Positions 2,469 to 41,198 of a stretch of DNA of 42,746 nucleotides are shown here, piece by piece. The DNA is from an uncultured bacterium (GTDB lineage Bacteria > Verrucomicrobiota > Kiritimatiellia > CAIKKV01 > CAITUY01). The notes beneath the pieces were generated by a model, which saw only the letters and a program-made list of their open reading frames with translations, was not told the DNA's origin and did not search any database. Within the stretch, counting starts at the first letter, position 1; the number at the start of each line of letters is the position of its first letter. Location of the stretch: positions 1 through 42,746 of the forward strand of contig CAJBSZ010000152.1 in the NCBI GenBank assembly GCA_903958395.1, given 5' to 3'. Made by a program: the position numbers and the translations under genes.

Positions 2469-3170
2469 ATGGCAATTCATATTCAATGTTCAAATTGCGG
2501 CAATCAAAATGACCTGGGCCGTGTGTTTTGCACGTCGTGCGGCCAGAAGCTTAACCTGCAGGACACCTCCATGGCGGATCTGGATGATCGGCGCGAAGTG
2601 GATTACGGAAAGTGGATCCGCGGTTTTCTGGCAGGGGTGGTGATCCTGGGAGTGGGCGGTTTGGCGGGGACAATCTTCTGGCCGGTGAAGACGCCTCCTG
2701 TATTTTTCGAGGCGACTGGTGCGGTGCAGATCCCTATCAAGGCAAAAGCGGCCCGGACCGCGTTGTCCTACAATCGCGAAATCAAGATTGACCTGACGGA
2801 AGGGGAGTTGAATGGATTCCTGGCGGAACGGGCCAAGTCCCGGAAGGTCGGAAAACTGGTGATCGACCTCAAGACAGGCATGTTTGACCTTTATGCCGGA
2901 TTCGACTGGTCGCCGCCCACGAACCTGACCTGGCTGGCCAAGGTGAAAATTCCTGTTTCCATTGACATGCGGGGCGGATTCCAGGCCGGCGTCCTGATGA
3001 TAGAGCGGGGCCGAATCGGGCATCTCCCTCTGCCCGGCTCGTCGAAAAATGTGGTGATTGATTATTTTGCGACTCTATTTCCCGACATTACGGGAGAAAA
3101 GCGGATGGTTTCGTTCCTGAAGAGCGTGGCCATCGAGGACACCAAGGTCACCCTGGTGTTGGCCCCGTGA
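2469..3170 (+). CDS. Zinc-ribbon membrane protein of unknown function
   Basis: N-terminal CSNCGNQND...FCTSCGQKL zinc ribbon, then one TM segment (FLAGVVILGVGGLAGTIFW). Confidence 0.75.
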   Translation: MAIHIQCSNCGNQNDLGRVFCTSCGQKLNLQDTSMADLDDRREVDYGKWIRGFLAGVVILGVGGLAGTIFWPVKTPPVFFEATGAVQIPIKAKAARTALSYNREIKIDLTEGELNGFLAERAKSRKVGKLVIDLKTGMFDLYAGFDWSPPTNLTWLAKVKIPVSIDMRGGFQAGVLMIERGRIGHLPLPGSSKNVVIDYFATLFPDITGEKRMVSFLKSVAIEDTKVTLVLAP

Positions 3171-4438
3171 GGCTTCGAGTGGCGAGGGTGAAGGGTGACG
3201 GCCTGGCCGTTTTCCTTTTGTTGCTATGTCTTTCCCCTGTGCTCGCCGGGTCGGTTATCACCACCAGTGCTTCGGGCCGCTATCGGGTGGTGGGTCCGGA
3301 CACTCTGGAAAACACCGATTATACCCGCTGGGCTGAAGACATGACCCTTCAGGTTGAGCGGTTCCTGGGAATGCCGATTCCCCTGATGCGCGGGAGTGTC
3401 GTGGAGATGGCTCTGGAAAATTCCGGACCGGTATCCGTTTCCTGTTCCCGCAGCGAGGGAAAGCTCCAGCGTGTTCTGGCCCTGTCCCGGACGGGACAGG
3501 TGGAGTACGATTTGATTCAGGAAGGGTTGATCCGGCTGGTGCTGGCCGGGATTGTGGAGCGTCGCCGCCAGGAGGAGGGACTGCCGGATGTGATTCCGGC
3601 GATTCCCCGCTGGTTGAGCGTGGGACTGGCCCTGAATCTTGACAAAGAGCAAGTGGCTCGAAACCGGAAAATCGTGGTGGCCGCTGCGATGGAGCCGGGG
3701 TTGATCCGGGCTTCCACGGTGATGGGGTGGGAGCAACTTCCCGAAGGCTGGCACGGGCGCCAGGCGTTGTGTGGGATTCTGGTGGCGTGGATCAATTCGG
3801 TTCCCGAAGCCCTTGACCGGGTGCTTGAGCGCGTGGTGCGGCAGGAGCCGGTAACGCCCCTGTGGCTTGCCGTGGCGGGAATCCGGACGGATTCTGTGGA
3901 AGGAATGGAAGCCCTTTGGAAGGAGTTCCGGCAGTTGCAGGGTTGCGCCATTCAGGAATTCGGGGGGTTGTCGATGGCTCTGATTGATCAGGTGAAAGCG
4001 GAATTACCCCTTGAATTCAAGTCTCCTGAACCGGTCTGCCTTCACCCCCGCGAGGTCATTGCGGCGCGCAAGAAATGGCCGGGGGCTGTCGCGAATGCGG
4101 CGATGGTCAAAATGGAACGACTTCAAGTGATCACGATAGGGAAGGCTCCGGAACTGGGGGCGTTGACCGATCTGTATGGTCGTTTTTACGAGGGGGTGGC
4201 CTCGGGAGCCTGGGCGCCAATCCTGACCTGGCGCCTGAGTCGCGCCGAAGCCGCCCTGAAGCGGCTGGAAAGCCTGACCCGCGCCCGCGAAGCCTATCTG
4301 GACGAAATGGAGCAGGGAGCGACGGGGAAACGGGAAGGCCCGGCGGCGTTGTCGGGGGTGGGGTTGGTTCCCGAACTTGAAAAAAGCAGGATAGAGTCTT
4401 ATATTGACGGGGCCGAAAAAAGATACCATAAGCCCTGA
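3167..4438 (+). CDS. Hypothetical secreted protein
   Basis: 423 aa with N-terminal hydrophobic signal; overlaps the previous ORF by 4 nt (ATGA) and argH by 1 nt. Confidence 0.7.
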   Translation: MRLRVARVKGDGLAVFLLLLCLSPVLAGSVITTSASGRYRVVGPDTLENTDYTRWAEDMTLQVERFLGMPIPLMRGSVVEMALENSGPVSVSCSRSEGKLQRVLALSRTGQVEYDLIQEGLIRLVLAGIVERRRQEEGLPDVIPAIPRWLSVGLALNLDKEQVARNRKIVVAAAMEPGLIRASTVMGWEQLPEGWHGRQALCGILVAWINSVPEALDRVLERVVRQEPVTPLWLAVAGIRTDSVEGMEALWKEFRQLQGCAIQEFGGLSMALIDQVKAELPLEFKSPEPVCLHPREVIAARKKWPGAVANAAMVKMERLQVITIGKAPELGALTDLYGRFYEGVASGAWAPILTWRLSRAEAALKRLESLTRAREAYLDEMEQGATGKREGPAALSGVGLVPELEKSRIESYIDGAEKRYHKP

Positions 4439-5856
4439 TGGAAAAGGGTAGCAGAGGGAAAGGTTCCATGACATCTCGCAAGATGACACGCAAGACCACG
4501 GTGGGCTCCATTGATCCCGCCGTTCTGGATTTTACCGCCGGAAGCGATCTTCAACTCGATTTAGCGCTGGTTCAAGCCGACTGTATTGGTTCCGCCGCCC
4601 ATGTCATCATGCTGTCCCGCATGCCGGTCCGGCCGAAGGTGATCACGGGAGCCGAGTGCAAGGCGGTGATCCGGGAATTGGGATCGATTATGCAGCGCGC
4701 GGCGACGGGGCAGTTTTCGATATCCCTGGACGATCAGGATGTACACCTGGCGGTGGAGCGGATTCTCACCGCGAAACTCGGCGATCTGGGAAAGAAGATT
4801 CACACCGGCCGAAGCCGGAACGATCAGGTGGCGGTGGATCTTCGTTTGTTCGCGCGGGAAGAACTGATCGGAACGGTCTCCGAGGCTCTGTCTCTGGCAG
4901 GGGTGTTGGTGGGGTTTGCCCAGCGGCATGAAGCGGTTCCCATGGTGGGGCGAACCCATATGCAGCCGGCCATGCCCAGCTCGGTGGGATTATGGGCGTC
5001 GGCGCATGCAGAGAGCCTGCTTGATGATGTCGCCCTGCTCATGGCGGTTTATGATTTGAACGACCAGTGCCCGCTGGGTTCGGCGGCCAGCTATGGCGTC
5101 CCGCTCCCGATTGACCGCGCGCTCACCGCGCGCCTGCTTGGATTCAGCCGGCCGGTTCACAATGTTCTGTATGCCAATAACGCCCGCGGCAAGATCGAGG
5201 CACTGATTCTTCAGGCCATGACGCAGGTGATGCTTTCGCTGTCCCGCCTGGCTCAGGATCTGATGCTGTTCACCCTGCCTGAGTTTGGCTATTTCACCCT
5301 GCCTGCCGAGTACGGGACGGGAAGCAGTATCATGCCGCAGAAGAATAATCCCGATGTGGTCGAACTGGTCCGGGCCCGGGTGGCCCGCGTGATGGCCTGC
5401 GAGCTGGCGGTGATGGACATTGCCCGCAGCCTGCCCAGCGGTTACAATCGTGACCTGCAGGAAACCAAGGGGCCCTTCATGGAGGGAGTGGCCATAACCC
5501 GCTCCTGTCTGCGGAGCATGGCGCAGATGACGGAGCGGATGGAAGTCAATGCCGGGGCGTTGCTGAAGGGGTTTTCGCCCGGGGTTTTCGCCACCGATCG
5601 CGCGCTGGAACTGGTGGGGCGCGGCATGCCGTTCCGGGATGCTTACAATTACATCAAGGCCAACCTGGACGAGCTTGAGACGATGGATGCGGCAAACTCG
5701 GTGTTGAAGAAAACGCATTGGGGTGCACCCGGCGGGCTGGATTTCGGTTGGTACGGGGAACGGATCAAGGCGGGGCGGGAATGGCAGGACGGGGAGTGGA
5801 CCGCCCATTGCAAGGCGGTGTCGAAGTTGATGGGGATCAAATATCCTGTGGCGTGA
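4438..5856 (+). CDS. argH: Argininosuccinate lyase
   Basis: HTGRSRNDQVAVDLRLF, MVGRTHMQPAMPSS, GTGSSIMPQKNNPDVVELVRAR signature motifs of the fumarase/ASL superfamily. Confidence 0.9.
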   Translation: MEKGSRGKGSMTSRKMTRKTTVGSIDPAVLDFTAGSDLQLDLALVQADCIGSAAHVIMLSRMPVRPKVITGAECKAVIRELGSIMQRAATGQFSISLDDQDVHLAVERILTAKLGDLGKKIHTGRSRNDQVAVDLRLFAREELIGTVSEALSLAGVLVGFAQRHEAVPMVGRTHMQPAMPSSVGLWASAHAESLLDDVALLMAVYDLNDQCPLGSAASYGVPLPIDRALTARLLGFSRPVHNVLYANNARGKIEALILQAMTQVMLSLSRLAQDLMLFTLPEFGYFTLPAEYGTGSSIMPQKNNPDVVELVRARVARVMACELAVMDIARSLPSGYNRDLQETKGPFMEGVAITRSCLRSMAQMTERMEVNAGALLKGFSPGVFATDRALELVGRGMPFRDAYNYIKANLDELETMDAANSVLKKTHWGAPGGLDFGWYGERIKAGREWQDGEWTAHCKAVSKLMGIKYPVA

Positions 5857-5909: not shown

Positions 5910-6653
5910 ATGAACAAAGTCCGAAACTATTTTAGTCTGAGTGTCATGACTGTATTTGCATCATCCGCCGCTGTTTTTGCACAGGCGGCCGGCAAGGATG
6001 ATCTCCTGGCCACGCAACAGGTGCCGTTGTGGGACATGGTGAGCCGGGGTGGCGCGGTGATGGTGGTGCTCGGGCTGATGTCGGTCGTCGGTCTGGCGCT
6101 CGTGATCTACTTTTTTGTTATTTTGCGCCGCAGTCAGGTGGTTCCGCCAGCGCTCCGGGATGATGTTCTCGACAAACTGGAGACGGGCGAATGGGTCGAT
6201 GCCCGATCCGCCTGCGGCTACAAACCCTGCGCCTTTTCGGAGGTTGCCGTTTCAGCGATTGATTATGCCCGGTCCGGTGAGAAGCCGGATCCCGCATTAT
6301 TGAAGGATGTGATTGAAGGAGAGGGCGGGCGGCAGGCGTTGATCATCCAGGGGCAGACCCAGTACCTTTTCGATCTTGCGGTGCTGTCTCCGATGGTGGG
6401 CCTTCTGGGAACGGTGTTTGGAATGATTCACGCCTTTAACGCGGTGGCCCTGGATTTGACCAAGGCCAAACCCATGCTTCTGGCGGCGGGAGTGGGCGAG
6501 GCGCTGGTGGCCACGGCCGCCGGGTTGATTGTCGGCATCCCGACGATGGCATTCTATGCCTTTTTCAGGAACCGGGCGGCCCGGTTGATTGCCGAGCTTG
6601 AGGTGGCGTCCGGCCAGGTTATGAATGTCCTGCTGAGCAAGAGGAGCAAATGA
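5910..6653 (+). CDS. exbB: MotA/TolQ/ExbB-family proton channel protein with N-terminal signal
   Basis: LLGTVFGMIHAFNAVA...GVGEALVATAAGLIVGIPTMAFYAFFRNR is the conserved TolQ/ExbB region; start at ATG 5910. Confidence 0.9.
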   Translation: MNKVRNYFSLSVMTVFASSAAVFAQAAGKDDLLATQQVPLWDMVSRGGAVMVVLGLMSVVGLALVIYFFVILRRSQVVPPALRDDVLDKLETGEWVDARSACGYKPCAFSEVAVSAIDYARSGEKPDPALLKDVIEGEGGRQALIIQGQTQYLFDLAVLSPMVGLLGTVFGMIHAFNAVALDLTKAKPMLLAAGVGEALVATAAGLIVGIPTMAFYAFFRNRAARLIAELEVASGQVMNVLLSKRSK

Positions 6654-7078
6654 ACTTTCGCGGAAGGCACCAGCCCAATCCCATCGCGTTCCAGATTGCG
6701 CCGATGGTGGATTTTTTGCTCGTGTTGCTCTGCTACTCGATCATGAGCCAGATTTTCACGCAATGGGAGGCCGAGTTGGATGTCAAGCTGCCCACGGCAT
6801 CGTCAGCCCAGATCGAGCAGCGGCTTCCGGGCGAAATCATCCTGAACATCATGAAAAACGGGGCGACGGTTGTGAATGGCCGTACCCTGAGCGATTCTGA
6901 ACTGGCCTCGCTGCTCAAGCGCCTGGTGGAGCTGTTTCCGGGTCAGCCGGTCCTGCTTCGGGCTGATAAGCAGACTGACTACGAGCATGTGATCAAGGTT
7001 CTTGATTATTGCAGGCAGGCCGATATCTGGAATGTATCCTTCGCCACGGGGTTGGTGGAGAAGAAAGCCGGGTCGTGA
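6650..7078 (+). CDS. exbD: ExbD/TolR-family biopolymer transport protein
   Basis: NPIAFQIAPMVDFLLVLLCYSIM TM helix with the conserved Asp; ATGA overlap with exbB. Confidence 0.88.
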   Translation: MNFRGRHQPNPIAFQIAPMVDFLLVLLCYSIMSQIFTQWEAELDVKLPTASSAQIEQRLPGEIILNIMKNGATVVNGRTLSDSELASLLKRLVELFPGQPVLLRADKQTDYEHVIKVLDYCRQADIWNVSFATGLVEKKAGS

Positions 7079-9387
7079 AGTCCGTTTGTTCCAGCATTCG
7101 ATTCGTCCTGTATGCCGGCTGCGTCGGGGGAAGCCTTTTTTTTGCGCGACCGTGTTGCGCCCTTGATGCCGCCGAACAGCTCCAATTCGCCGATGGTCTT
7201 TATGCGCGCGGGATGTGGGATACGGCGCTGAAGGAATACCAGGCCTTCCTGGTTCAGAATCCCGATAAAAAAACGGGGAGTGAGGCGGTTTATTACCGCA
7301 TGGGCGAGAGTTTCAGGGCGCTGGGGCGGATCCCGGAGGCCGACGCGGCCTATCAGCGGGCCTATGACGATTATCCCAATGGCGAATTCCATTACCGGGC
7401 CGGCCTGCGCCGTGCGGAATTCCTGGAGCAGGCGGGACAAGGGACGGAGCAGGTTCAGCTTCTCGTGGCCATGCTGGCCTCCACCCCGCCGCCGGATCTC
7501 GGCTCCGCCTGCCGCTACTCGCTGGGCGCCGCGCTTGAGAAGCAGGGAAAGATCACCGAGGCGGTCGAAGCCTATGAGGCGGTGGTGAAGAAATATCCGG
7601 GCACTCCCTTTGTGTCGTATGCCGCCCTTGCCCTGGCCGGCTTGGATCGCAAGGCAGGAGGCGGCCGCAGCGCCGAACTCTACCGGTTGGCGGCCACGAA
7701 TGCGGCCACCCCGCAGGTCGGGGCCGAAGCCTTGTTTCAATTGGGTGATTTTTATTTCGGGCGCAAGGAGTATGAGCAGAGCGCCCGCGCGTATGAACAG
7801 TTGGCGGCGCAGTATCCGGCCGATGGCCGGGTTGCCGAGGCCCGGCTCCAGCAGGCTTGGGCCCTGTATCATGCCCGGCGGTTTTCGGAGGCCCTTCAGC
7901 TTTGCGTCGCGGGGAGGACCGAGGCGTGGTTGTATCTCAAGGGGAATTGCGAACGGCAGCTTTTGAAAAACGACGAAGCAGCGGCCACCTATGCCGAGCT
8001 TTTGAAGGCGTACCCGCAGGGTGCCATGGCCGGTAGCGCCGCGTATGAGCGGGCCCTGGCGTTTTTTAAGCTGGGCCGGTTCCAGGAGGCGATTGATCAG
8101 GCCAGGGGCCTGACGGCTAACGAGAAGATCCGGCGGGATGTGTACTGGCTTCTGGCGGAATCCTGTGCTTCCGTGAAGGATGAGGATGGAGCGGTTCAGA
8201 ATTACCGGCTTCTGGTGGAGCAGTATCCGGGGTCGCCGCTGGCGGGTGACGCCCTGTACAGGCTGGCCCATGGGTTGCAGAAGAAGGGCGATTTCCTGCA
8301 GGCCTCGGAACTGTTCGGGCGGCTGGCTTCCGAATTTCCAACGCATGACCTGGCGGCGCAGGCGGTTTTTGCCCAGGCCTCATGTTTGGGCAAGGCGCAG
8401 AAGCACGAACAGGCTGTGGCCGCTTATGCCCGGCTGGTGGAGAAATTTCCGAAGTGTCCCTTTGTCGAGGATTCGCTTTATCAGAAGGCCACCGTGGAGA
8501 CCTTCCTTCGCCGTGACGCCCGGGCGCTGGAAACCTGGCACGATCTGCTGAGCCGCTTTCCGGCAACCAAATACGGGGCCGATGCCCGGTTCTGGAACGG
8601 AGTGCTCCTGGAAGAAAACGGAAAGTATGAGGACGCTGAGGCGGCGTTCCGGGCCGCGCTGAATGCGGTCCCTCCGCCTTCGGAAGAACTGGTTCAGCGG
8701 GCCCGGTTTCGACTGGCGCTGGTATTGCAGCGGCGTGGAGGGAAGTCTGGTGAGGCGGCGAATTTGTTGCAGGGACTGATGGCGACGCCGATGCGTGATA
8801 AATTCCAGCCCGAATTGGCGGAGTGGCTTGCGGATTACCAGATTGGCCAGCGTGACTATGGCGCGGCGGCGGTGGATGCCGACTGGCTGGCGACCCGGGC
8901 GACATCCGATAACTGGCGCCAGATTGCCTGGTGTCTCAAGGGTAAGGCGCTACTGGGGCAGGGGAAGAACGAGGAAGCCCGGCAGGCGTTCGAGCGGGTT
9001 GTGGGAATCGATTTCAAGAGCCAGGCCCTGGCGGAGGCCTGGTTGAAGCTGGGCGGCTTAACCCTGGCGGCGGGGGATGCGGCGAAGGCGAAGCGTGCGT
9101 TCGAGGAAGCGGCCACGCTGGCAGCCTCCGATACGCTGCTGCCGATCCGGGTTCAGGCGTATGCCGGGATCGGGCGGGCACTGAAGGCCCAGGGTGATTC
9201 TGCCGGGGCCTCGCGTCATTTCCTGAGCGTGGCCGTGCTGTTCGACGACCCGACGCTGGTGCCCGAATGCCTGTATGAGGCCGCGCAGTCGTTTGCCGCC
9301 ATGGGGCGCAAGGACGATGCCGAAAAAGCAAAGAAGGAATTGCTGGATCGCTACCCGGAAAGCGAATGGGCCCGGAAAGTGAAATGA
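7075..9387 (+). CDS. Secreted tetratricopeptide-repeat protein (tol-pal system / YbgF-CpoB-like position)
   Basis: Many TPR-like units (e.g. AVYYRMGESFRALGRIPEADAAYQRAYDDYPNG; ALYRLAHGLQKKGDFLQASELFGRLASEFP). GTG start at 7075 overlaps the exbD stop (GTGA); signal peptide follows. Confidence 0.85.
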   Translation: MKSVCSSIRFVLYAGCVGGSLFFARPCCALDAAEQLQFADGLYARGMWDTALKEYQAFLVQNPDKKTGSEAVYYRMGESFRALGRIPEADAAYQRAYDDYPNGEFHYRAGLRRAEFLEQAGQGTEQVQLLVAMLASTPPPDLGSACRYSLGAALEKQGKITEAVEAYEAVVKKYPGTPFVSYAALALAGLDRKAGGGRSAELYRLAATNAATPQVGAEALFQLGDFYFGRKEYEQSARAYEQLAAQYPADGRVAEARLQQAWALYHARRFSEALQLCVAGRTEAWLYLKGNCERQLLKNDEAAATYAELLKAYPQGAMAGSAAYERALAFFKLGRFQEAIDQARGLTANEKIRRDVYWLLAESCASVKDEDGAVQNYRLLVEQYPGSPLAGDALYRLAHGLQKKGDFLQASELFGRLASEFPTHDLAAQAVFAQASCLGKAQKHEQAVAAYARLVEKFPKCPFVEDSLYQKATVETFLRRDARALETWHDLLSRFPATKYGADARFWNGVLLEENGKYEDAEAAFRAALNAVPPPSEELVQRARFRLALVLQRRGGKSGEAANLLQGLMATPMRDKFQPELAEWLADYQIGQRDYGAAAVDADWLATRATSDNWRQIAWCLKGKALLGQGKNEEARQAFERVVGIDFKSQALAEAWLKLGGLTLAAGDAAKAKRAFEEAATLAASDTLLPIRVQAYAGIGRALKAQGDSAGASRHFLSVAVLFDDPTLVPECLYEAAQSFAAMGRKDDAEKAKKELLDRYPESEWARKVK

Positions 9388-9409
9388 AATCAAACCGATC
9401 TGACAGATT

Positions 9410-11230
9410 ATGACCACTCCATCACGAAACCTGAGCTTCCGTCGCAAGAACCAGCCCTTGGGGGCGATGGAGATCGTGCGGCAATTGCACCGGCGGCACA
9501 TGGTTTGGTATGGCATTGCCATATTGGTCTCGGTGTTGTTGCATCTGTTGCTGATCTTGTTTATGCCCGGAATCAGCGCGTACAAGATTGCGCCGGGTCG
9601 GTCGGGTGAGCGGCCGATTTCACTCCGGCTCGAGAACGTCAAGGCGGTTTCGGAAGCTCCCGAGTCGGATCGGCGCCCGCCGAAGTTCAAGCCTGAGACC
9701 GCAAAGGGCGCGACGGTTGCCGGCGAGATTGACGCGGAGATGACGACCATTCGACGGTCCCTGGACGAATCCTCGGTGGAGCCGAGGCAGGTGGGGGCGG
9801 GGCTCCTGATCGGGGAGCAGCACACGCTGACTGAGCCCGCTCAGGTGGATCGTCCGGTGTGGGAGCCGCGACAGGAAATCCTGAGCATCAACCAGAAAAT
9901 CGTGAAGGAGGATGCCACTATCAATCGGCCTAGACGGACTGTTCAGAGTGTGCCGCGCGAACAGAACGGAGTCGATATCGCAGCCCCTGCGAGCCGGGAC
10001 GCCTTGGAGCGGGGGATATCATCAACCGGCGTCTATTACCTGGTGGAGGACCCGTCCCAATTCACCTGGGGACGGAGCATACCGGCCGGAGCGGGGTTGA
10101 GCGGGGTGGCGAGGGATGTCCAACCCCCGAAAACAATGCTTCAGGAGGAGCCTCGGAAACTGGCGGACGAGGATCGCAACCGCATCACCATTCTCAAGGC
10201 CCTGGAGAAATACCTCAAGGCGGATGTGTATCTCTACCGGTCGCCGACGGATCCTCTTTATGATTACTGCCGGATTGAGATCACGCGGCGGAAAGCGGAT
10301 CTGTTGCCGGTTCTGGCAAAGGATCTGTTGCTGGTTCAGGACGGCTCTGCCAGCATCACCGAACAGAAACTCCGTTTCTGCCGGGAGGGGATGCTCAAGG
10401 CGCTTGACCTGCTGGCGCCGGGCGACCGGTTCAATGTCGTCGAATTCCGGGACTCGGTCTCGCGATGCTTCGAAACCTGGGCAGCGGTGAACCCGGATAC
10501 CCTGCAACAAGCGCGCGAATTTATCGGGCGTATGGAGTCGGTGGGGAACACGGATATCTTTGATTCCCTGAAGGAGCTTCTGGCGACGTCGCGTCAGTCG
10601 GGTCGGCCGGTGATCTTAATGGTGGTGAGCGATGGGGTGGCCACGGCGGGGTTGACCGATCACTCGTTGATCATTGAGGCGTTCAGTCAGGCGAACCGCG
10701 GGGCGGTCTCGGTCTTTACGGTGGGAACCTATCCCGGGGTTAATGCCTATCTTCTCGATCTTTTGAGTTTTCGTAACCGGGGCGACACGTTTGTAGTGAA
10801 GACAGGGCGGTGGGATATTCCCGCTGTGATTGAGGCGCGGGTTCGTGAGGTGAGTCGTCCGGTCTTGTCGGATGTGCGCTTCCGGTTCTCGGGGCAGACC
10901 TATTGCGAGGCGTATCCGGTGTTGACGGCGAACCTCTACATGGACCGTCCGCTGGTGCTGTTCGGACGGGTTCCGCGGAACACGCGGAAACTGGTTTTCC
11001 AGGCGACCGGTCAGGCGGCGGATATCCAGTGCGATATGGTGTTTGACCTGGATCTGGCGAAGGCGCTGGGCGGTGAGGCGGATATCCGGACGCAATGGGC
11101 CTGGCAGCGGGCGTATTTCCTGATTGGCGAACACAACCGCATGAAACAGCCCGGCGTCCTTACCGAGTTGAAAACCCTGGGCAAGACCTACGGCATCAAG
11201 GTTCCCTACCGGAACGAGTGGGGACAATAA
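9410..11230 (+). CDS. Membrane-anchored von Willebrand factor A domain protein with TonB/TolA-like N-terminal TM helix
   Basis: TM helix MVWYGIAILVSVLLHLLLILFM; VWA MIDAS elements DGSAS (10340-10354), NTDIFDSL, VVSDGVAT; fourth gene after exbB/exbD/TPR. Confidence 0.85.
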   Translation: MTTPSRNLSFRRKNQPLGAMEIVRQLHRRHMVWYGIAILVSVLLHLLLILFMPGISAYKIAPGRSGERPISLRLENVKAVSEAPESDRRPPKFKPETAKGATVAGEIDAEMTTIRRSLDESSVEPRQVGAGLLIGEQHTLTEPAQVDRPVWEPRQEILSINQKIVKEDATINRPRRTVQSVPREQNGVDIAAPASRDALERGISSTGVYYLVEDPSQFTWGRSIPAGAGLSGVARDVQPPKTMLQEEPRKLADEDRNRITILKALEKYLKADVYLYRSPTDPLYDYCRIEITRRKADLLPVLAKDLLLVQDGSASITEQKLRFCREGMLKALDLLAPGDRFNVVEFRDSVSRCFETWAAVNPDTLQQAREFIGRMESVGNTDIFDSLKELLATSRQSGRPVILMVVSDGVATAGLTDHSLIIEAFSQANRGAVSVFTVGTYPGVNAYLLDLLSFRNRGDTFVVKTGRWDIPAVIEARVREVSRPVLSDVRFRFSGQTYCEAYPVLTANLYMDRPLVLFGRVPRNTRKLVFQATGQAADIQCDMVFDLDLAKALGGEADIRTQWAWQRAYFLIGEHNRMKQPGVLTELKTLGKTYGIKVPYRNEWGQ

Positions 11231-34994: not shown

Positions 34995-37900
34995 ATGAAG
35001 ACCCTGGGTATTGTGGCGTTCCTTTCGATTCTCTCCCTGGCTCCAACCCTGCAGGCGCAATCCGGTCAGTCCGTTGCAGACCGCGAAATCCTCCGGAAAC
35101 AGGCTCAGAAGCATCAGCAGCAGGGAAACTACAAGGAGGCTCTGGAGGCCTACTCGACCCTCGCGACCGATCCGCAGGAGAATCCCGGGCAGATTGGCAA
35201 TGACCTGCAGGGTGCCGTGGCCTGCATGCAGTCACTCAACCGGATCGGTGAGGCGGATGCCTTTCGCGAGAAGGTGGTGGGGCTTCATGCGGAAAACTGG
35301 CGGGCCCTGGCGGCGGCGGCGAACAGTCTGTTCCAGGGCGATCACAGCGGAACCCTTGTGGCAGGTGTTTTTGAACGGGGGCCACATCGCGGGCAGGGCC
35401 GGTTTGTAAATGCCGAGGAGCGCGACCGGATCCGGGCCCTGCAGTGGATGGTTAAAGCCATGACCCTGCTGGAGGCGCTTCCCGTTTCTCCCGGCTGGGA
35501 GGCGGGCTCCTTTTACGAGGAATTCGCCCGCATGCTGATGGGCTTCCGAGCCTATCAGGACGCATGGCGCTTGCAGGTCTTGAGCGACTTGGCGGTTCTT
35601 CCCGATTATGAGGATGGAAATGTTTACTGGCAAAGCCGTGGCCAAACCCGGGGAGCCCCGGTGGATGAAAAGGGGAGTCCGATTCTCTACAGTGTGCCGG
35701 CGCGTTATGAGGCGGCTGCGAACGATGGCGAGCGCTGGCGCTGGATGTTGAAGCGGGCGGTGGACCATGACCGATCCCGGGCGCAATCCATTCAACATAC
35801 CTTTGCCGGGTTCCTATGTCAGCAGTTCGGGGTGGAAACCCTCGCGTGGGGCGGATGGCAGGCTCCCCGAATGGATGAGGATGACCCCAAGGCCGCTACA
35901 GCCACCCTGGCGCTCCACACACTTGGCGATAACGAGACGGTCGCCCGGCTCGCCACGGGAATCAAGCGGTTCGCTCTGCCTGATGAGTTTGATTTCATCC
36001 GGCTCTACAGGGACTTGGCTTCCGACGCGAAATCCGGTTATGCGGAATCGGCCCTGAACTCGCTCGCCGGAATCTTTACGAACCGTCGCCAATATCCGCA
36101 GGCTGCCGAGTATTGGCGTGAAAGTATCAAGGCTCATGGGCCGGGATCGGATAACTGGAAACAAAAGAAGCTCGATCAGATTCTTGGGAATTGGGGGCGG
36201 TTCGAGCCGTCCATGACCCATCCGGCCGGGCCGGGAGCCTCTCTGGAATACCGGTTCCGAAACGGAGCGAAAGTGGTCTTCGATGCCCGCGAAATCAAGG
36301 TTCCTGAATTGCTGGCCGATCTTAAGGATTACCTCAAGTCCAATCCCCGCGAACTGGATTGGAACCGGATGTCTCTGGACAACATCGGGATGATGCTGGT
36401 CGAGAAGAACCAGGCGAAATATCTCGGACGGGAAGCCGCCCGATGGGAATTGCCGCTCACTCCGAAGGCGCATCATTTCGACAAGGTCGTGACCGTGAAG
36501 ACCGGGCTTAAGACGGCGGGCGCCTATTTGCTGACCGCCACCATGGCCAACGGCAATGTGAGCAAGATCGTGGTTTGGGTGAACGATACGGTGATCGCCC
36601 GCAAACAAACCGTCAAAGCCTCGCTGTATTATGTGGCCGATGCGGTTACCGGAAAGCCGCTCGGGGGTGTGAATGTCGAGTGCTTCGGCTACCGGCAGGA
36701 GTACATCCAGGGCTGGAAGTCGATGGGTCGACAATTCAACGTTCTCACCACCGCATTTGCCGAAACCACCGATCCGGACGGCCAGGTGAGCCCAGCCAAA
36801 AAGGATCTGGATCCGCAGTACCAGTGGTTGGTTACCGCAACAACGGCCGACGGGCGACTCGCCGTCCTCGGGTTTTCATCGGTCTGGTACGGCCAGTACT
36901 ATGATCACGACTATAACGAACGGAAAATTTTCGGAATCACCGACCGCCCGGTTTACCGGCCGGACCAGAAGGTGAATTTCAAATTTTGGATCCGTCATGC
37001 CCGTTACGATGAGGACAATACTTCGGATTACGCCGACAAGGAATTCACCGTGGTCATCACGAATCCCAAGGGCGACAAGGTGTTTGAGAAAGCCTTCAAG
37101 ACCGATGCCGTGGCCGGGCTTCAGGGGGAGATGGCGCTCCCGAAGGATGCAGCGCTGGGGCAGTATTATGCCTCGATCAAAGGATGCGGTTGGGGTGGAG
37201 TGAATTTCCGGGTTGAAGAATACAAGAAGCCCGAGTTCGAGGTGAGCGTTGACGCGCCGAAAGAGCCGGTGATGCTGGGCGAGTCGATTACGGCGACGAT
37301 CAAGGCGAAGTATTACTTCGGCACCGCCGTCACGAAGGCCAAGGTCAAAGTCAAGGTCACCCGTTTCAGTTATAGCGCCACCTGGTATCCGCCGATGCCG
37401 TGGGACTGGTTCTACGGGCCCGGCTACTGGTGGTTCGCGTCCGACTCTGCCTGGTTTCCGGGCTGGAAGGACTGGGGTTGTTTCTGTCCGCGAGGCTGGT
37501 GGTGGCCTGCTCCGTACAATCCGCCCGAGTTGGTGGCCGAGGCAGAGGTTCCCATCGGGGCGGACGGCGTCGTGAAACTGCCGATCGATACCGCGTTGGC
37601 AAAGGAATTGCACGGCGATACGGATCACAAGTATGAGATCACGGCTGAAGTGACGGATGAGTCCCGCCGCACGATTGTCGGGCAGGGAACGGTGCTGGTC
37701 GCGCGCAAGCCCTTCAAGGTCACCGCCTGGGTTGACCGCGGTCACTACCGGCCGGGCGACGTGATCAGGGCCGATTTTGCGGCCAGGACGCTCGATGGCA
37801 AGCCGGTCAAGGGACGCGGCCAACTGGTGCTGTACCGGATTAAATACAAGGACGGTGCCCCGGCCGAAAAAGTGGTTCGGAAGTGGGATCTCGATACAAA

Positions 37901-40900
37901 TGAGGAGGGTCTTGCCACTCAACAGATCCAGGCCTCGGCGGCAGGCCAGTACCGCCTGTCCTATACCGTGAAGGACGAAAAGCGCCATTCAATCGAGGGA
38001 GGCTATGTGTTTGTGGTGCGGGGTGAGGGATTTGACGGACGCGACTTTAAATTCAGTGAGATTGAGTTGATCCCCGAAAACCGGGAATACCGGCCTGGCG
38101 AAAAAGTTAGCCTGATGATCAATACCGATCACCCCGGTGCCACGATCCTGCTTTTTGTCCGCCCGGCTAACGGAGTTTACCTGAGGCCAAAACTATTGCG
38201 ACTGGTCGGTAAGAGCACGGTGGAGGAAATCGAAGTCATGAAAAAGGACATGCCGAGCTTCTTCGTCGAGGCGATGACCGTGTTTGACGGCAGGGTATAC
38301 AGTCAGACCCGTGAAATCATCGTGCCGCCTGAAAAGCGGGTTCTGAATGTCGAGGTGCTGCCTTCCGTGGAAAAATACAAACCGGGCGAGACGGCCAAGA
38401 TCAAGGTCCGGGTGACCGACTTTTTTGGAAAACCCTTGGCCGGTTCCACGGTGATGAGCGTGTATGACAAGTCGGTGGAGTATATTTCCGGTGGTTCGAA
38501 TGTGGCCGGGATTCGTGACTTCTTCTGGAAATGGCGCCGACAGCACACTCCCCGCACGGAGAGCAATACAGACCGCTGGTTTCCTAACCTGACACCCAAC
38601 CGGATGCTGGCCATGGATAATCTGGGGTTGTTCGGGGAGACTGTTGTGGATGAGGTGGGGGATGACGTAGATAGTTTACAGTCGGGCTTTAAGAGTAAAA
38701 AGGATTCAGGTGGCCTGAGGAGAGGGAGATTTGAGAAGTCCTTTGGAGGGCAAGCGGCGGGAATGGCGATGTCGTTCGTCGCAATGGATGCCCCCGCCGC
38801 ATCCGGGGTGGTAAATTTATGCATGGAGGCCAGTACGAAAGAAGAGAGTTCGTCCGGGGGCGAATCCGGTGCGGTTGCCGAGCCGACGGTGCGTTCTGAA
38901 TTCGCGGATACGGCTTACTGGAATCCTTCGCTGGCAACCGACTCCAATGGCATGGCCGAGGTCAGTTTCAAGATGCCGGAGAACCTGACCGGGTGGAAGA
39001 TTAAAACCTGGGCAATGGGGCAGGGTACGATGGTGGGCGAGGGCGTTGCCGAGGTGGTGACGGCGAAAAATGTGATGCTCCGGTTGCAGGCGCCCCGGTT
39101 TTTTGTGGAGAAGGATGAAGTGGTGTTGTCGGCCAATATTCATAACGCCCTGAAATCGGACAAATCGGTTCAGGCAGTGTTGGAGGTCGAGGGGGGCTGT
39201 CTGGAGATCATGGGTAAGGCCCGGCAGACCCTGAAGATTAAAGCTGGCGATGAACAGCGGGTGGATTGGCGCGTCAAGGTGGTCAAGGAGGGGCGGGTGG
39301 TTGTCCGCATGAAGGCCCTGACGGATGAGGAGTCCGACGCCATGGAGATGAAGTTCCCGGTCTATGTCCACGGGATGCTTAAGACCGAATCCTGGTCCGG
39401 GGTGTTGCGTCCGGATCGCGATCGCCAGGACTTTACGATTACGGTGCCCGCCGAGCGACGGCCGGGGCAATCGCGGCTGGAGATCCGGTATTCGCCGACC
39501 CTGGCCGGCGCCCTGGTGGATGCGCTTCCTTATCTGGTGGATTATCCTTACGGCTGCACCGAGCAGACCCTCAACCGGTTCCTTCCCACGGTGCTGGTTC
39601 AGAAATCGCTCAAGGATATGGGATTGGATCTCAAAACAATCCAGGCGAAACGGACGAATCTGAATGCGCAGGAAATTGGGGACGACCAGGAGCGGGCAGC
39701 CCAGTGGAAGCGGAACAATCCCCCCAATCCGGGCGAGGAGCGTAATCCGGTGTTTGACGAGGCCGTGGTGAACGATATGGTCAAACAGGGGCTCAAGGCG
39801 CTGACCGCCATGCAATGTGACGATGGCGGCTGGGGCTGGTTCTCAGGCTGGGGCGAGCGTTCATGGCCGCACACTACGGCGACGGTTGTCCATGGCCTTC
39901 AGATCGCGAAGCAGAATGGCGTGGCCCTGGTGCCCGGGGTTCTGGAGCGGGGTGTTGACTGGCTTGGGAAATTCCAGGCCGAGGAATTGCGGAAGTTGAG
40001 GAATGCCTCGCTACACCTGACGTTACTGGACTGCAAAGATCATGCCGATGACATGGATGCGTTTGTCTACATGGTACTGGTGGATGCGGGTCGGGACAAT
40101 TCATCCATGCGTGAATACCTGTATAACGGCCGGACCAACTTGTCGGTTTATGCCAAGGCGATGTTCGGGTTGGCGCTGCACACGAGCGGGCAGGTGGAGA
40201 AGCGGGACATGATCCTGCGCAATATCGGGCAGTATGTGGTGCGCGATCCGGAGAACCAGACGGCGTACCTTAATCTTGGCAATTCCGGGTATTGGTGGTG
40301 CTGGTATGGCAGCGAGAACGAGGCTCATGCCTATTACTTGAAATTGCTGGCGGCGACAGCACCCAAGGGCGAGGTGGCCTCGGAACTGGTCAAATACCTG
40401 CTGAACAACCGGAAGCACGCCAGTTATTGGAATTCCACACGCGATACCGCGCTGTGTATTGAGGCGATGGCGGACTATCTCAAGGCGAGCGGGGAGGACA
40501 AGCCGGACATGACGGTTGAGGTTTTTCTGGATGGCACCAAGGTCAAGGAAAGCCGGATCACGGCCGACAATCTGTTTTTGTTTGATAACAAGCTGGTGTT
40601 GGAAGGGGCGGCGGTGACGACCGGCACGCATCAGGTTGAGGTGCGTCGGCGCGGGACTGGCCCGGTGTATTTCAATGCCACCCTGACGAATTTCACCCTG
40701 GAGGATCCGATCAAGCGGGCTGGTTTGGAGATCAAGGTGAATCGGTCTGTTTACAAGCTGATTCCGGCCAATAAGACCATCAAGGCGGCGGGCTCGCGCG
40801 GTCAGGCGCTGGACCAGAAGGTCGAGAAATATGAGCGGAAGCGGCTGACTGATGGCGACACGCTCAAGAGCGGCGACCTGGTTGAGGTGGAGCTCGAGAT

Positions 40901-41198
40901 TGCCAGCAAGAATGACTACGAATATATCATTTTTGAGGACATGAAAGCGGCGGGCTTCGAAGCGGTCGAAGTGCGGAGCGGGTTTAACGGTAATGATCTC
41001 GGCGCGTTTGTGGAGTTCCGCGATGAGCGGGTCTGTTTCTTTGTCCGTCAGTTGGCGCGCGGCCAGAACAGCGTGAGCTACCGGCTACGGGCGGAGATCC
41101 CCGGCATTTTCAGCGCCCTTCCAACAAAAGCCAGCGCCATGTATGCCCCGGAACTCAAGGCGAATTCCGACGAGATCAAGTTGCGGATTGAGGATTGA
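34995..41198 (+). CDS. Bacterial alpha-2-macroglobulin family protein, thioester-containing, with N-terminal TPR-like region
   Basis: 2067 aa; signal peptide MKTLGIVAFLSILSLAPTLQAQ; MG-domain-like segments (FGITDRPVYRPDQKVNFKFWIRHAR; ADTAYWNPSLATDSNGMAEVSFKMPENLTGWKIKTWAM); thioester motif PYGCTEQ (CTEQ at 39555-39566). Confidence 0.95.
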   Translation: MKTLGIVAFLSILSLAPTLQAQSGQSVADREILRKQAQKHQQQGNYKEALEAYSTLATDPQENPGQIGNDLQGAVACMQSLNRIGEADAFREKVVGLHAENWRALAAAANSLFQGDHSGTLVAGVFERGPHRGQGRFVNAEERDRIRALQWMVKAMTLLEALPVSPGWEAGSFYEEFARMLMGFRAYQDAWRLQVLSDLAVLPDYEDGNVYWQSRGQTRGAPVDEKGSPILYSVPARYEAAANDGERWRWMLKRAVDHDRSRAQSIQHTFAGFLCQQFGVETLAWGGWQAPRMDEDDPKAATATLALHTLGDNETVARLATGIKRFALPDEFDFIRLYRDLASDAKSGYAESALNSLAGIFTNRRQYPQAAEYWRESIKAHGPGSDNWKQKKLDQILGNWGRFEPSMTHPAGPGASLEYRFRNGAKVVFDAREIKVPELLADLKDYLKSNPRELDWNRMSLDNIGMMLVEKNQAKYLGREAARWELPLTPKAHHFDKVVTVKTGLKTAGAYLLTATMANGNVSKIVVWVNDTVIARKQTVKASLYYVADAVTGKPLGGVNVECFGYRQEYIQGWKSMGRQFNVLTTAFAETTDPDGQVSPAKKDLDPQYQWLVTATTADGRLAVLGFSSVWYGQYYDHDYNERKIFGITDRPVYRPDQKVNFKFWIRHARYDEDNTSDYADKEFTVVITNPKGDKVFEKAFKTDAVAGLQGEMALPKDAALGQYYASIKGCGWGGVNFRVEEYKKPEFEVSVDAPKEPVMLGESITATIKAKYYFGTAVTKAKVKVKVTRFSYSATWYPPMPWDWFYGPGYWWFASDSAWFPGWKDWGCFCPRGWWWPAPYNPPELVAEAEVPIGADGVVKLPIDTALAKELHGDTDHKYEITAEVTDESRRTIVGQGTVLVARKPFKVTAWVDRGHYRPGDVIRADFAARTLDGKPVKGRGQLVLYRIKYKDGAPAEKVVRKWDLDTNEEGLATQQIQASAAGQYRLSYTVKDEKRHSIEGGYVFVVRGEGFDGRDFKFSEIELIPENREYRPGEKVSLMINTDHPGATILLFVRPANGVYLRPKLLRLVGKSTVEEIEVMKKDMPSFFVEAMTVFDGRVYSQTREIIVPPEKRVLNVEVLPSVEKYKPGETAKIKVRVTDFFGKPLAGSTVMSVYDKSVEYISGGSNVAGIRDFFWKWRRQHTPRTESNTDRWFPNLTPNRMLAMDNLGLFGETVVDEVGDDVDSLQSGFKSKKDSGGLRRGRFEKSFGGQAAGMAMSFVAMDAPAASGVVNLCMEASTKEESSSGGESGAVAEPTVRSEFADTAYWNPSLATDSNGMAEVSFKMPENLTGWKIKTWAMGQGTMVGEGVAEVVTAKNVMLRLQAPRFFVEKDEVVLSANIHNALKSDKSVQAVLEVEGGCLEIMGKARQTLKIKAGDEQRVDWRVKVVKEGRVVVRMKALTDEESDAMEMKFPVYVHGMLKTESWSGVLRPDRDRQDFTITVPAERRPGQSRLEIRYSPTLAGALVDALPYLVDYPYGCTEQTLNRFLPTVLVQKSLKDMGLDLKTIQAKRTNLNAQEIGDDQERAAQWKRNNPPNPGEERNPVFDEAVVNDMVKQGLKALTAMQCDDGGWGWFSGWGERSWPHTTATVVHGLQIAKQNGVALVPGVLERGVDWLGKFQAEELRKLRNASLHLTLLDCKDHADDMDAFVYMVLVDAGRDNSSMREYLYNGRTNLSVYAKAMFGLALHTSGQVEKRDMILRNIGQYVVRDPENQTAYLNLGNSGYWWCWYGSENEAHAYYLKLLAATAPKGEVASELVKYLLNNRKHASYWNSTRDTALCIEAMADYLKASGEDKPDMTVEVFLDGTKVKESRITADNLFLFDNKLVLEGAAVTTGTHQVEVRRRGTGPVYFNATLTNFTLEDPIKRAGLEIKVNRSVYKLIPANKTIKAAGSRGQALDQKVEKYERKRLTDGDTLKSGDLVEVELEIASKNDYEYIIFEDMKAAGFEAVEVRSGFNGNDLGAFVEFRDERVCFFVRQLARGQNSVSYRLRAEIPGIFSALPTKASAMYAPELKANSDEIKLRIED

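Follow-up and report, generated by a model that had tools for sequence, protein, structure and literature searches.

A putative proton-driven motor coupled to a TonB-like transducer with an ITIH-like vWA domain in uncultured Verrucomicrobiota

The window analyzed here, meaning the whole 42,746-nucleotide stretch of contig CAJBSZ010000152.1 from an uncultured member of the Kiritimatiellia, carries a cassette of four genes on the forward strand. The first two encode an ExbB/TolQ-like motor subunit of 247 aa (5910-6653; Pfam MotA_ExbB, 86 bits) and an ExbD/TolR-like subunit of 142 aa (6650-7078; Pfam ExbD, 74 bits). They are followed by a gene with a GTG start for a 770-aa TPR protein (7075-9387; several Pfam TPR families, with TPR_6 at 152 bits) and by a gene for a 606-aa VWA protein that we regard as a candidate TonB-like transducer (9410-11230; Pfam VWA_3, 51 bits, with an AF2 model). 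The Pfam matches of all four products are over the cut-off. The close packing described in the initial annotation was confirmed: exbB and exbD overlap by ATGA at 6650-6653, exbD and the TPR gene overlap by GTGA at 7075-7078, and 22 nt separate the TPR stop codon (9385-9387) from the VWA start codon (ATG at 9410). The annotation had also reported no tonB or tolA C-terminal domain, and Pfam TonB_C and TolA are indeed absent from all four products; for the VWA protein, TonB_C (PF03544) gave no match at E ≤ 1.

An argininosuccinate-lyase-like gene (argH, 4438-5856) lies upstream of exbB, and a PAS-SpoIIE phosphatase gene lies downstream of the cassette on the reverse strand. Further upstream, positions 2469-4438 encode a zinc-ribbon membrane protein (233 aa) and a secreted-looking protein of 423 aa without a Pfam match, and many genomes of the window's order retain both genes ahead of argH-exbB. 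At 34995-41198 the window also encodes a 2067-aa protein that, by reading of its sequence, resembles bacterial alpha-2-macroglobulin and contains a thioester-like GCTEQ motif.

An S-x3-H motif mediates the docking of TonB on ExbB and of TolA on TolQ. The initial annotation had looked for a helix with this motif only elsewhere in the genome; it is found in the VWA protein itself. The N-terminal helix of this protein (residues 19-51, 9464-9562) includes a membrane segment at approximately residues 33-52, according to the AF2 model and an alignment of 35 sequences whose other members are 25-84% identical to the window protein. The membrane helix reads MVWYGIAILVSVLLHLLLILFMPGIS and contains S41-V-L-L-H45 (9530-9544; VSVLLH, residues 40-45). 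In E. coli, the corresponding Ser16 and His20 of TonB contact Ser34 and Trp38 of ExbB (PMC12215075). Apart from Met1, S41 and H45 are the sole N-terminal residues invariant in all 35 aligned sequences, and the motif is present in 61 of the 63 family members examined across the class and the phylum. One of the two exceptions (L065, 8705-10490, in G027) covers just the C-terminal half, its gene being split over two frames, likely by a frameshift or an assembly error. The other is a family VWA protein whose helix is devoid of S-x3-H (L170, 6694-8415, in G092), though its genome retains exbB-exbD-TPR (L237). As a background, 6 of 281 other ORFs with an N-terminal helix in the fetched loci have the motif in that helix and all six adjoin exbD, so S-x3-H appears to be a specific marker of motor partners in these loci. 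The longer SHLS motif (S-x3-H-x6-L-x3-S) takes the form S-H-M-S in the window protein, with Met52 at the place of Leu and with Ser56 present.

Twenty-six residues after H45, the conservation pattern suggests a strand resembling the motor box (D-box), at residues 71-78 (S-L-R-L-E-N-V-K, 9620-9643). Columns 72, 74, and 77 are hydrophobic in 91, 91, and 97% of homologues, respectively, with polar residues between them. The D-box strand of E. coli TonB (residues 46-49) is found at the same distance after His20; the fit to the published 7-residue pattern is partial, as an extra polar residue precedes the last hydrophobic one (PMC10907165). In the AF2 model (mean pLDDT 73.6) the helix at residues 19-51 is followed by a linker (residues 58-265, 9581-10204) that is mostly disordered, with low pLDDT over most of its length, and then by a confident globular region (residues 266-606, 10205-11227; pLDDT about 92). 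The best PDB fold match of this region is ITI heavy chain 1 (6fpy, E 4.3e-23), and ITIH1 and ITIH4 were also matched by sequence. Its vWA domain and the domains that follow likewise resemble those of TIGR03788 sortase-target proteins (95 bits over residues 301-571), but this score is far under the cut-off of 551.65, the N-terminal half is not shared with ITIH or TIGR03788 proteins, and a TonB-like anchor stands in its place. The complete MIDAS noted in the initial annotation is borne out by the 35-sequence alignment, in which D311-x-S313-x-S315, D382, and D408-G409 are invariant and T381 is conserved in at least 90%; the vWA domain has a complete predicted metal site.

The residues expected of a working motor are retained in the two other subunits. 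Among 18 cognate ExbB sequences, S58 and T202 are invariant and T168 and P211 are at least 90% conserved; Thr168 and Thr202 are the pore residues. Ser58 is read from the sequences as the counterpart of E. coli ExbB Ser34, the TonB contact, and the position of Trp38, which contacts the TonB histidine, is Leu62 in the window protein. The proton-carrying transmembrane residue Asp21 of ExbD is invariant in 53 of 53 cognate sequences. With this Asp and the pore Thr residues intact, the ExbBD motor looks competent. Its best NCBIfam models are TolQ (66 bits, cut-off 221) and TolR (58 bits, cut-off 127.3), both below cut-off, which places it nearer TolQ/TolR than ExbB/ExbD. The TPR protein matches a YbgF/CpoB-like TPR model (202 bits against a cut-off of 90) and bears a Sec-type signal peptide, as do most of its homologues, and a lipobox-like tetrad occurs in just 6 of 48 homologue N-termini; it is presumed to be a soluble periplasmic partner.

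The four-gene order, which the initial annotation proposed to search for in other genomes, recurs in nearly all sampled VWA-holding members of the window's order, and also in several other families of the class (f19, f20 with G030, f25, and f27), showing that the gene order is conserved far beyond chance. In a search with an alignment of 11 sequences, the named relatives of the locus were MAGs labelled Kiritimatiellae, Lentisphaerae, Verrucomicrobia, or PVC group. A VWA homologue of the window family was detected in 41 of 58 related genomes. A forty-second genome (G040), first considered a case of a motor without VWA, was rejected as such when the VWA N-terminus (LSAILH) was found cut at a contig end. 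In roughly half of the genomes of the class, the VWA gene and exbBD are not adjacent. In some 20 of them the VWA gene is located elsewhere and exbB, exbD, and the TPR gene are retained, mostly as one operon. In most other families the VWA gene follows genes for a polA-type exonuclease and a membrane protein, coaE, and rho, and the exbB-exbD-TPR operon often follows ftsK, an HTH gene, and pgsA (neighbours named by reading of their sequences).

Despite this separation, the VWA protein looks to be inherited with its motor. ExbB scores are bimodal, with cognate sequences at E < 1e-45 and paralogues at E > 1e-36, and the cognate sequences form a single clade (support 100/99) in a tree of 42 rows, where an E. 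coli ExbB was used only as the outside row. Cognate ExbB was found in 42 of 42 class genomes with VWA versus 3 of 16 without it (Fisher p 1.8e-10, ignoring shared ancestry), and the TPR homologues largely follow the same presence pattern across the 58 genomes. The three genomes with cognate ExbB and no detectable VWA all belong to family f21 (G031, G044, and G054). Joint absences recur within f5 (G012 versus G016) and f23 (G033 and G045 versus G056, where the genes are unlinked). The possibility, raised in the initial annotation, that VWA homologues routinely occur without exbBD therefore holds for adjacency and fails for gene content; unlinked homologues were rejected as a refutation because every such class genome contains cognate ExbB.

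Beyond the class, 107 of 289 sampled Verrucomicrobiota genomes match the window VWA family at E ≤ 1e-40, a few of these matches being generic vWA proteins, and nearly all fetched VWA members from the phylum have S-x3-H. Genomes with VWA outside the class also score higher for cognate ExbB (AUC 0.98), a comparison confounded by the two sets being different families. Of 12 loci inspected from such genomes, 9 have exbB-exbD-TPR unlinked from VWA, the remaining three being short contigs or loci with no TPR gene. At least three genomes outside the class (G067, G063, and G074) have exbB-exbD-TPR and no detectable family VWA. The dependence runs one way: none of the 42 VWA genomes of the class was found to lack a cognate-like motor, whereas the motor occurs without VWA. 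As G031, G044, G054, G067, G063, and G074 have the motor without VWA, it may serve other arms too. A mucin-uptake lead in Akkermansia-like genomes was dropped, given that G074 is without family VWA and no useful paper was found.

Taken together, these sequence features make it likely that the cassette encodes a proton-driven motor of the TolQR/ExbBD type coupled to a TonB/TolA-like transducer with an ITIH-like vWA output domain. The initial annotation had placed the VWA protein in the TonB/TolA slot, and the S-x3-H anchor, the motor-box-like strand, the disordered linker, the globular C-terminal domain, and the co-inheritance with one ExbB clade all agree with that placement. The likeness to TonB extends to the spacing of the motor-box pattern, the extended linker, and the intact motor Asp and Thr residues; in contrast to TonB, the VWA protein ends in a vWA domain instead of TonB_C and has no known outer-membrane receptor partner. 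ExbB and ExbD would form the usual inner-membrane proton motor, judging from their families. The VWA helix would dock on the outside of ExbB through S41 and H45 together with the conserved ExbB Ser58, and the strand that lies 26 residues beyond H45 may be captured by the periplasmic ExbD dimer. The linker of approximately 200 residues would then reach into the periplasm, where the vWA domain could grip a target by its metal site. Proton flow would pull on or release this target; the periplasmic TPR protein could be either the target itself or an adaptor. Such a partnership is suggested by evidence independent of gene neighbourhood, and it is testable by simple gene removals, since the VWA gene and its motor genes, though frequently apart in the genome, are retained or lost jointly.

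The general concept of a vWA motor arm dates from a 2025 publication that seems to concern a different family: vWA force transducers with an SHLS motif were proposed there, often encoded downstream of a TPR gene, a tolQ-like gene, and a pair of tolR-like genes, and reported in Verrucomicrobia (PMC12204202; Mol Biol Evol 2025, msaf138). The window protein shares with this type the S-x3-H transmembrane helix, a disordered linker with the motor-box pattern, and a C-terminal vWA domain. It differs in its single exbD and in the TPR gene downstream rather than upstream of exbD. Further differences are an ExbB from a separate clade, a vWA region of the ITIH-like kind with the full MIDAS and an additional C-terminal part, and a VWA gene that is often unlinked. 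The window order exbB-exbD-TPR-VWA thus departs from the published one, which is described as frequent and not as strictly defining. Loci recognised by description as the published type occur in G120, G055, G038, and G083 of the same class, e.g. the complete genome G120, where, as in others, TPR-exbB-exbD-exbD is followed by S-x3-H proteins. One of these loci (L220) encodes two tandem vWA-like proteins in which the docking His is residue 35, matching the numbering in the publication.

That the window system belongs to this same family (Tichowtungia type) with a rearranged operon, and is nothing separate, appears unlikely. The architecture and motif are alike, the published family is reported from Verrucomicrobia (PMC12204202), and profiles of the L220 type and the window family share the vWA core and that core only (90% probability over 74 columns). 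Nevertheless, the G120 loci, which fit the published description and whose identity with the Tichowtungia type is inferred from it, have vWA proteins mostly without a complete MIDAS and an ExbB outside the window's clade, and the L220 vWA protein aligns with the window VWA by BLASTP at the anchor only (20 bits, E 0.17). Because of this weak, anchor-only alignment, the mostly degraded MIDAS, and the separate ExbB clade in G120-type loci, the window VWA proteins appear to be a second, separate family of SHLS-vWA transducers, although some members of the window family may be among the published ones.

Another reading, which we judge improbable, is that exbBD powers the ordinary TonB and outer-membrane receptors of the genome, with the VWA protein simply carried along, or docked in a regulatory role without passing on force. 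The genome does encode a TonB_C protein (C411, 81.5 bits), and TonB_C is present in 53 of 58 relatives; however, most genomes that have neither VWA nor the window ExbB clade contain it too. The search for a TonB or TolA elsewhere that might pair with the window exbBD yielded only this one clear TonB_C protein, on another contig; it has 235 aa and a helix with A-x3-H (AVSLHII) rather than S-x3-H, and it is unlinked to any exbBD found. Other exbB/exbD genes exist in the genome (C8 and C384), VWA and not TonB tracks the window exbB, and the docking motif and motor-box pattern are retained in VWA.

A surface adhesin or gliding-type system, with the vWA domain exposed and adhesive, is very improbable. 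MIDAS-bearing vWA domains are often adhesive, and gliding is raised as a possibility in the 2025 paper (PMC12204202), but the window protein has a single N-terminal inner-membrane anchor, a linker of about 200 residues, and no visible export or sortase signal, and the neighbourhoods are of a housekeeping kind with no recognised motility genes adjoining VWA. The adhesive alternative offered in the initial annotation thus finds no support in these features. Least credible is a chance proximity of exbBD to the genes of a Bat/MoxR-like complex of VWA and TPR proteins with a stress or chaperone role. Membrane VWA proteins and TPR proteins are indeed encoded together in Bat (aerotolerance) operons, and the TPR protein has a weak BatC match, but no MoxR ATPase or BatD was found among the scanned neighbours, and Bat systems are not characterised by an ExbBD motor, an S-x3-H anchor, or joint inheritance with one ExbB clade. 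A defence-system reading was rejected, PADLOC giving no match.

For the coupled motor and vWA transducer, the role that we consider most probable is a Tol-like one in maintaining the envelope, ahead of the import of nutrients; this is the weakest step of the proposal. We base it on the wide and mostly vertical conservation of the system, on its housekeeping neighbourhoods (argH; ftsK-HTH-pgsA; coaE-rho), and on its occurrence in genomes of which essentially all are without TolB. TolB_N had no match in the window's own genome and three marginal matches among the 58 relatives, with a positive E. coli control, and sampled members of the phylum mostly appear to be without TolB. Resemblance to Tol-Pal lies in the best scores of the motor against TolQ/TolR models and in the CpoB/YbgF-like TPR neighbour; the differences are that those scores are below the cut-offs and that neither a TolA C-terminal domain nor TolB is present. 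More tentatively, the TonB/TolA anchor may be a general plug, by which one kind of motor accepts several unrelated heads largely tracking ExbB clades, and the window system may be a Verrucomicrobiota-wide replacement for Tol-Pal. The heads seen on such anchors are the ITIH-like vWA, a degenerate vWA, a squalene-cyclase-like toroid, and a PA14-looking head. The broader question of whether ExbBD motors energise many different processes by exchange of their output domains now becomes testable.

The genome of the window also holds a second system of this kind (L079, 429-7442 of G000:C8), TPR-TPR-exbB-exbD-exbD, followed by a gene for an S-x3-H-anchored protein of 503 aa whose head is modelled as a squalene/hopene-cyclase-like alpha-alpha toroid; the main text of the 2025 paper (PMC12204202) has no mention of squalene or toroid. 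In G120, a toroid-type protein encoded after an exbD pair (L221, 5046-6557) has the helix SIAINAL without S-x3-H, possibly a natural loss of the docking His. The same genome encodes, after exbB-exbD-exbD, S-x3-H-anchored proteins (L218, 7697-8845, and L219, 6035-7147) whose head, without a Pfam match, looks like PA14.
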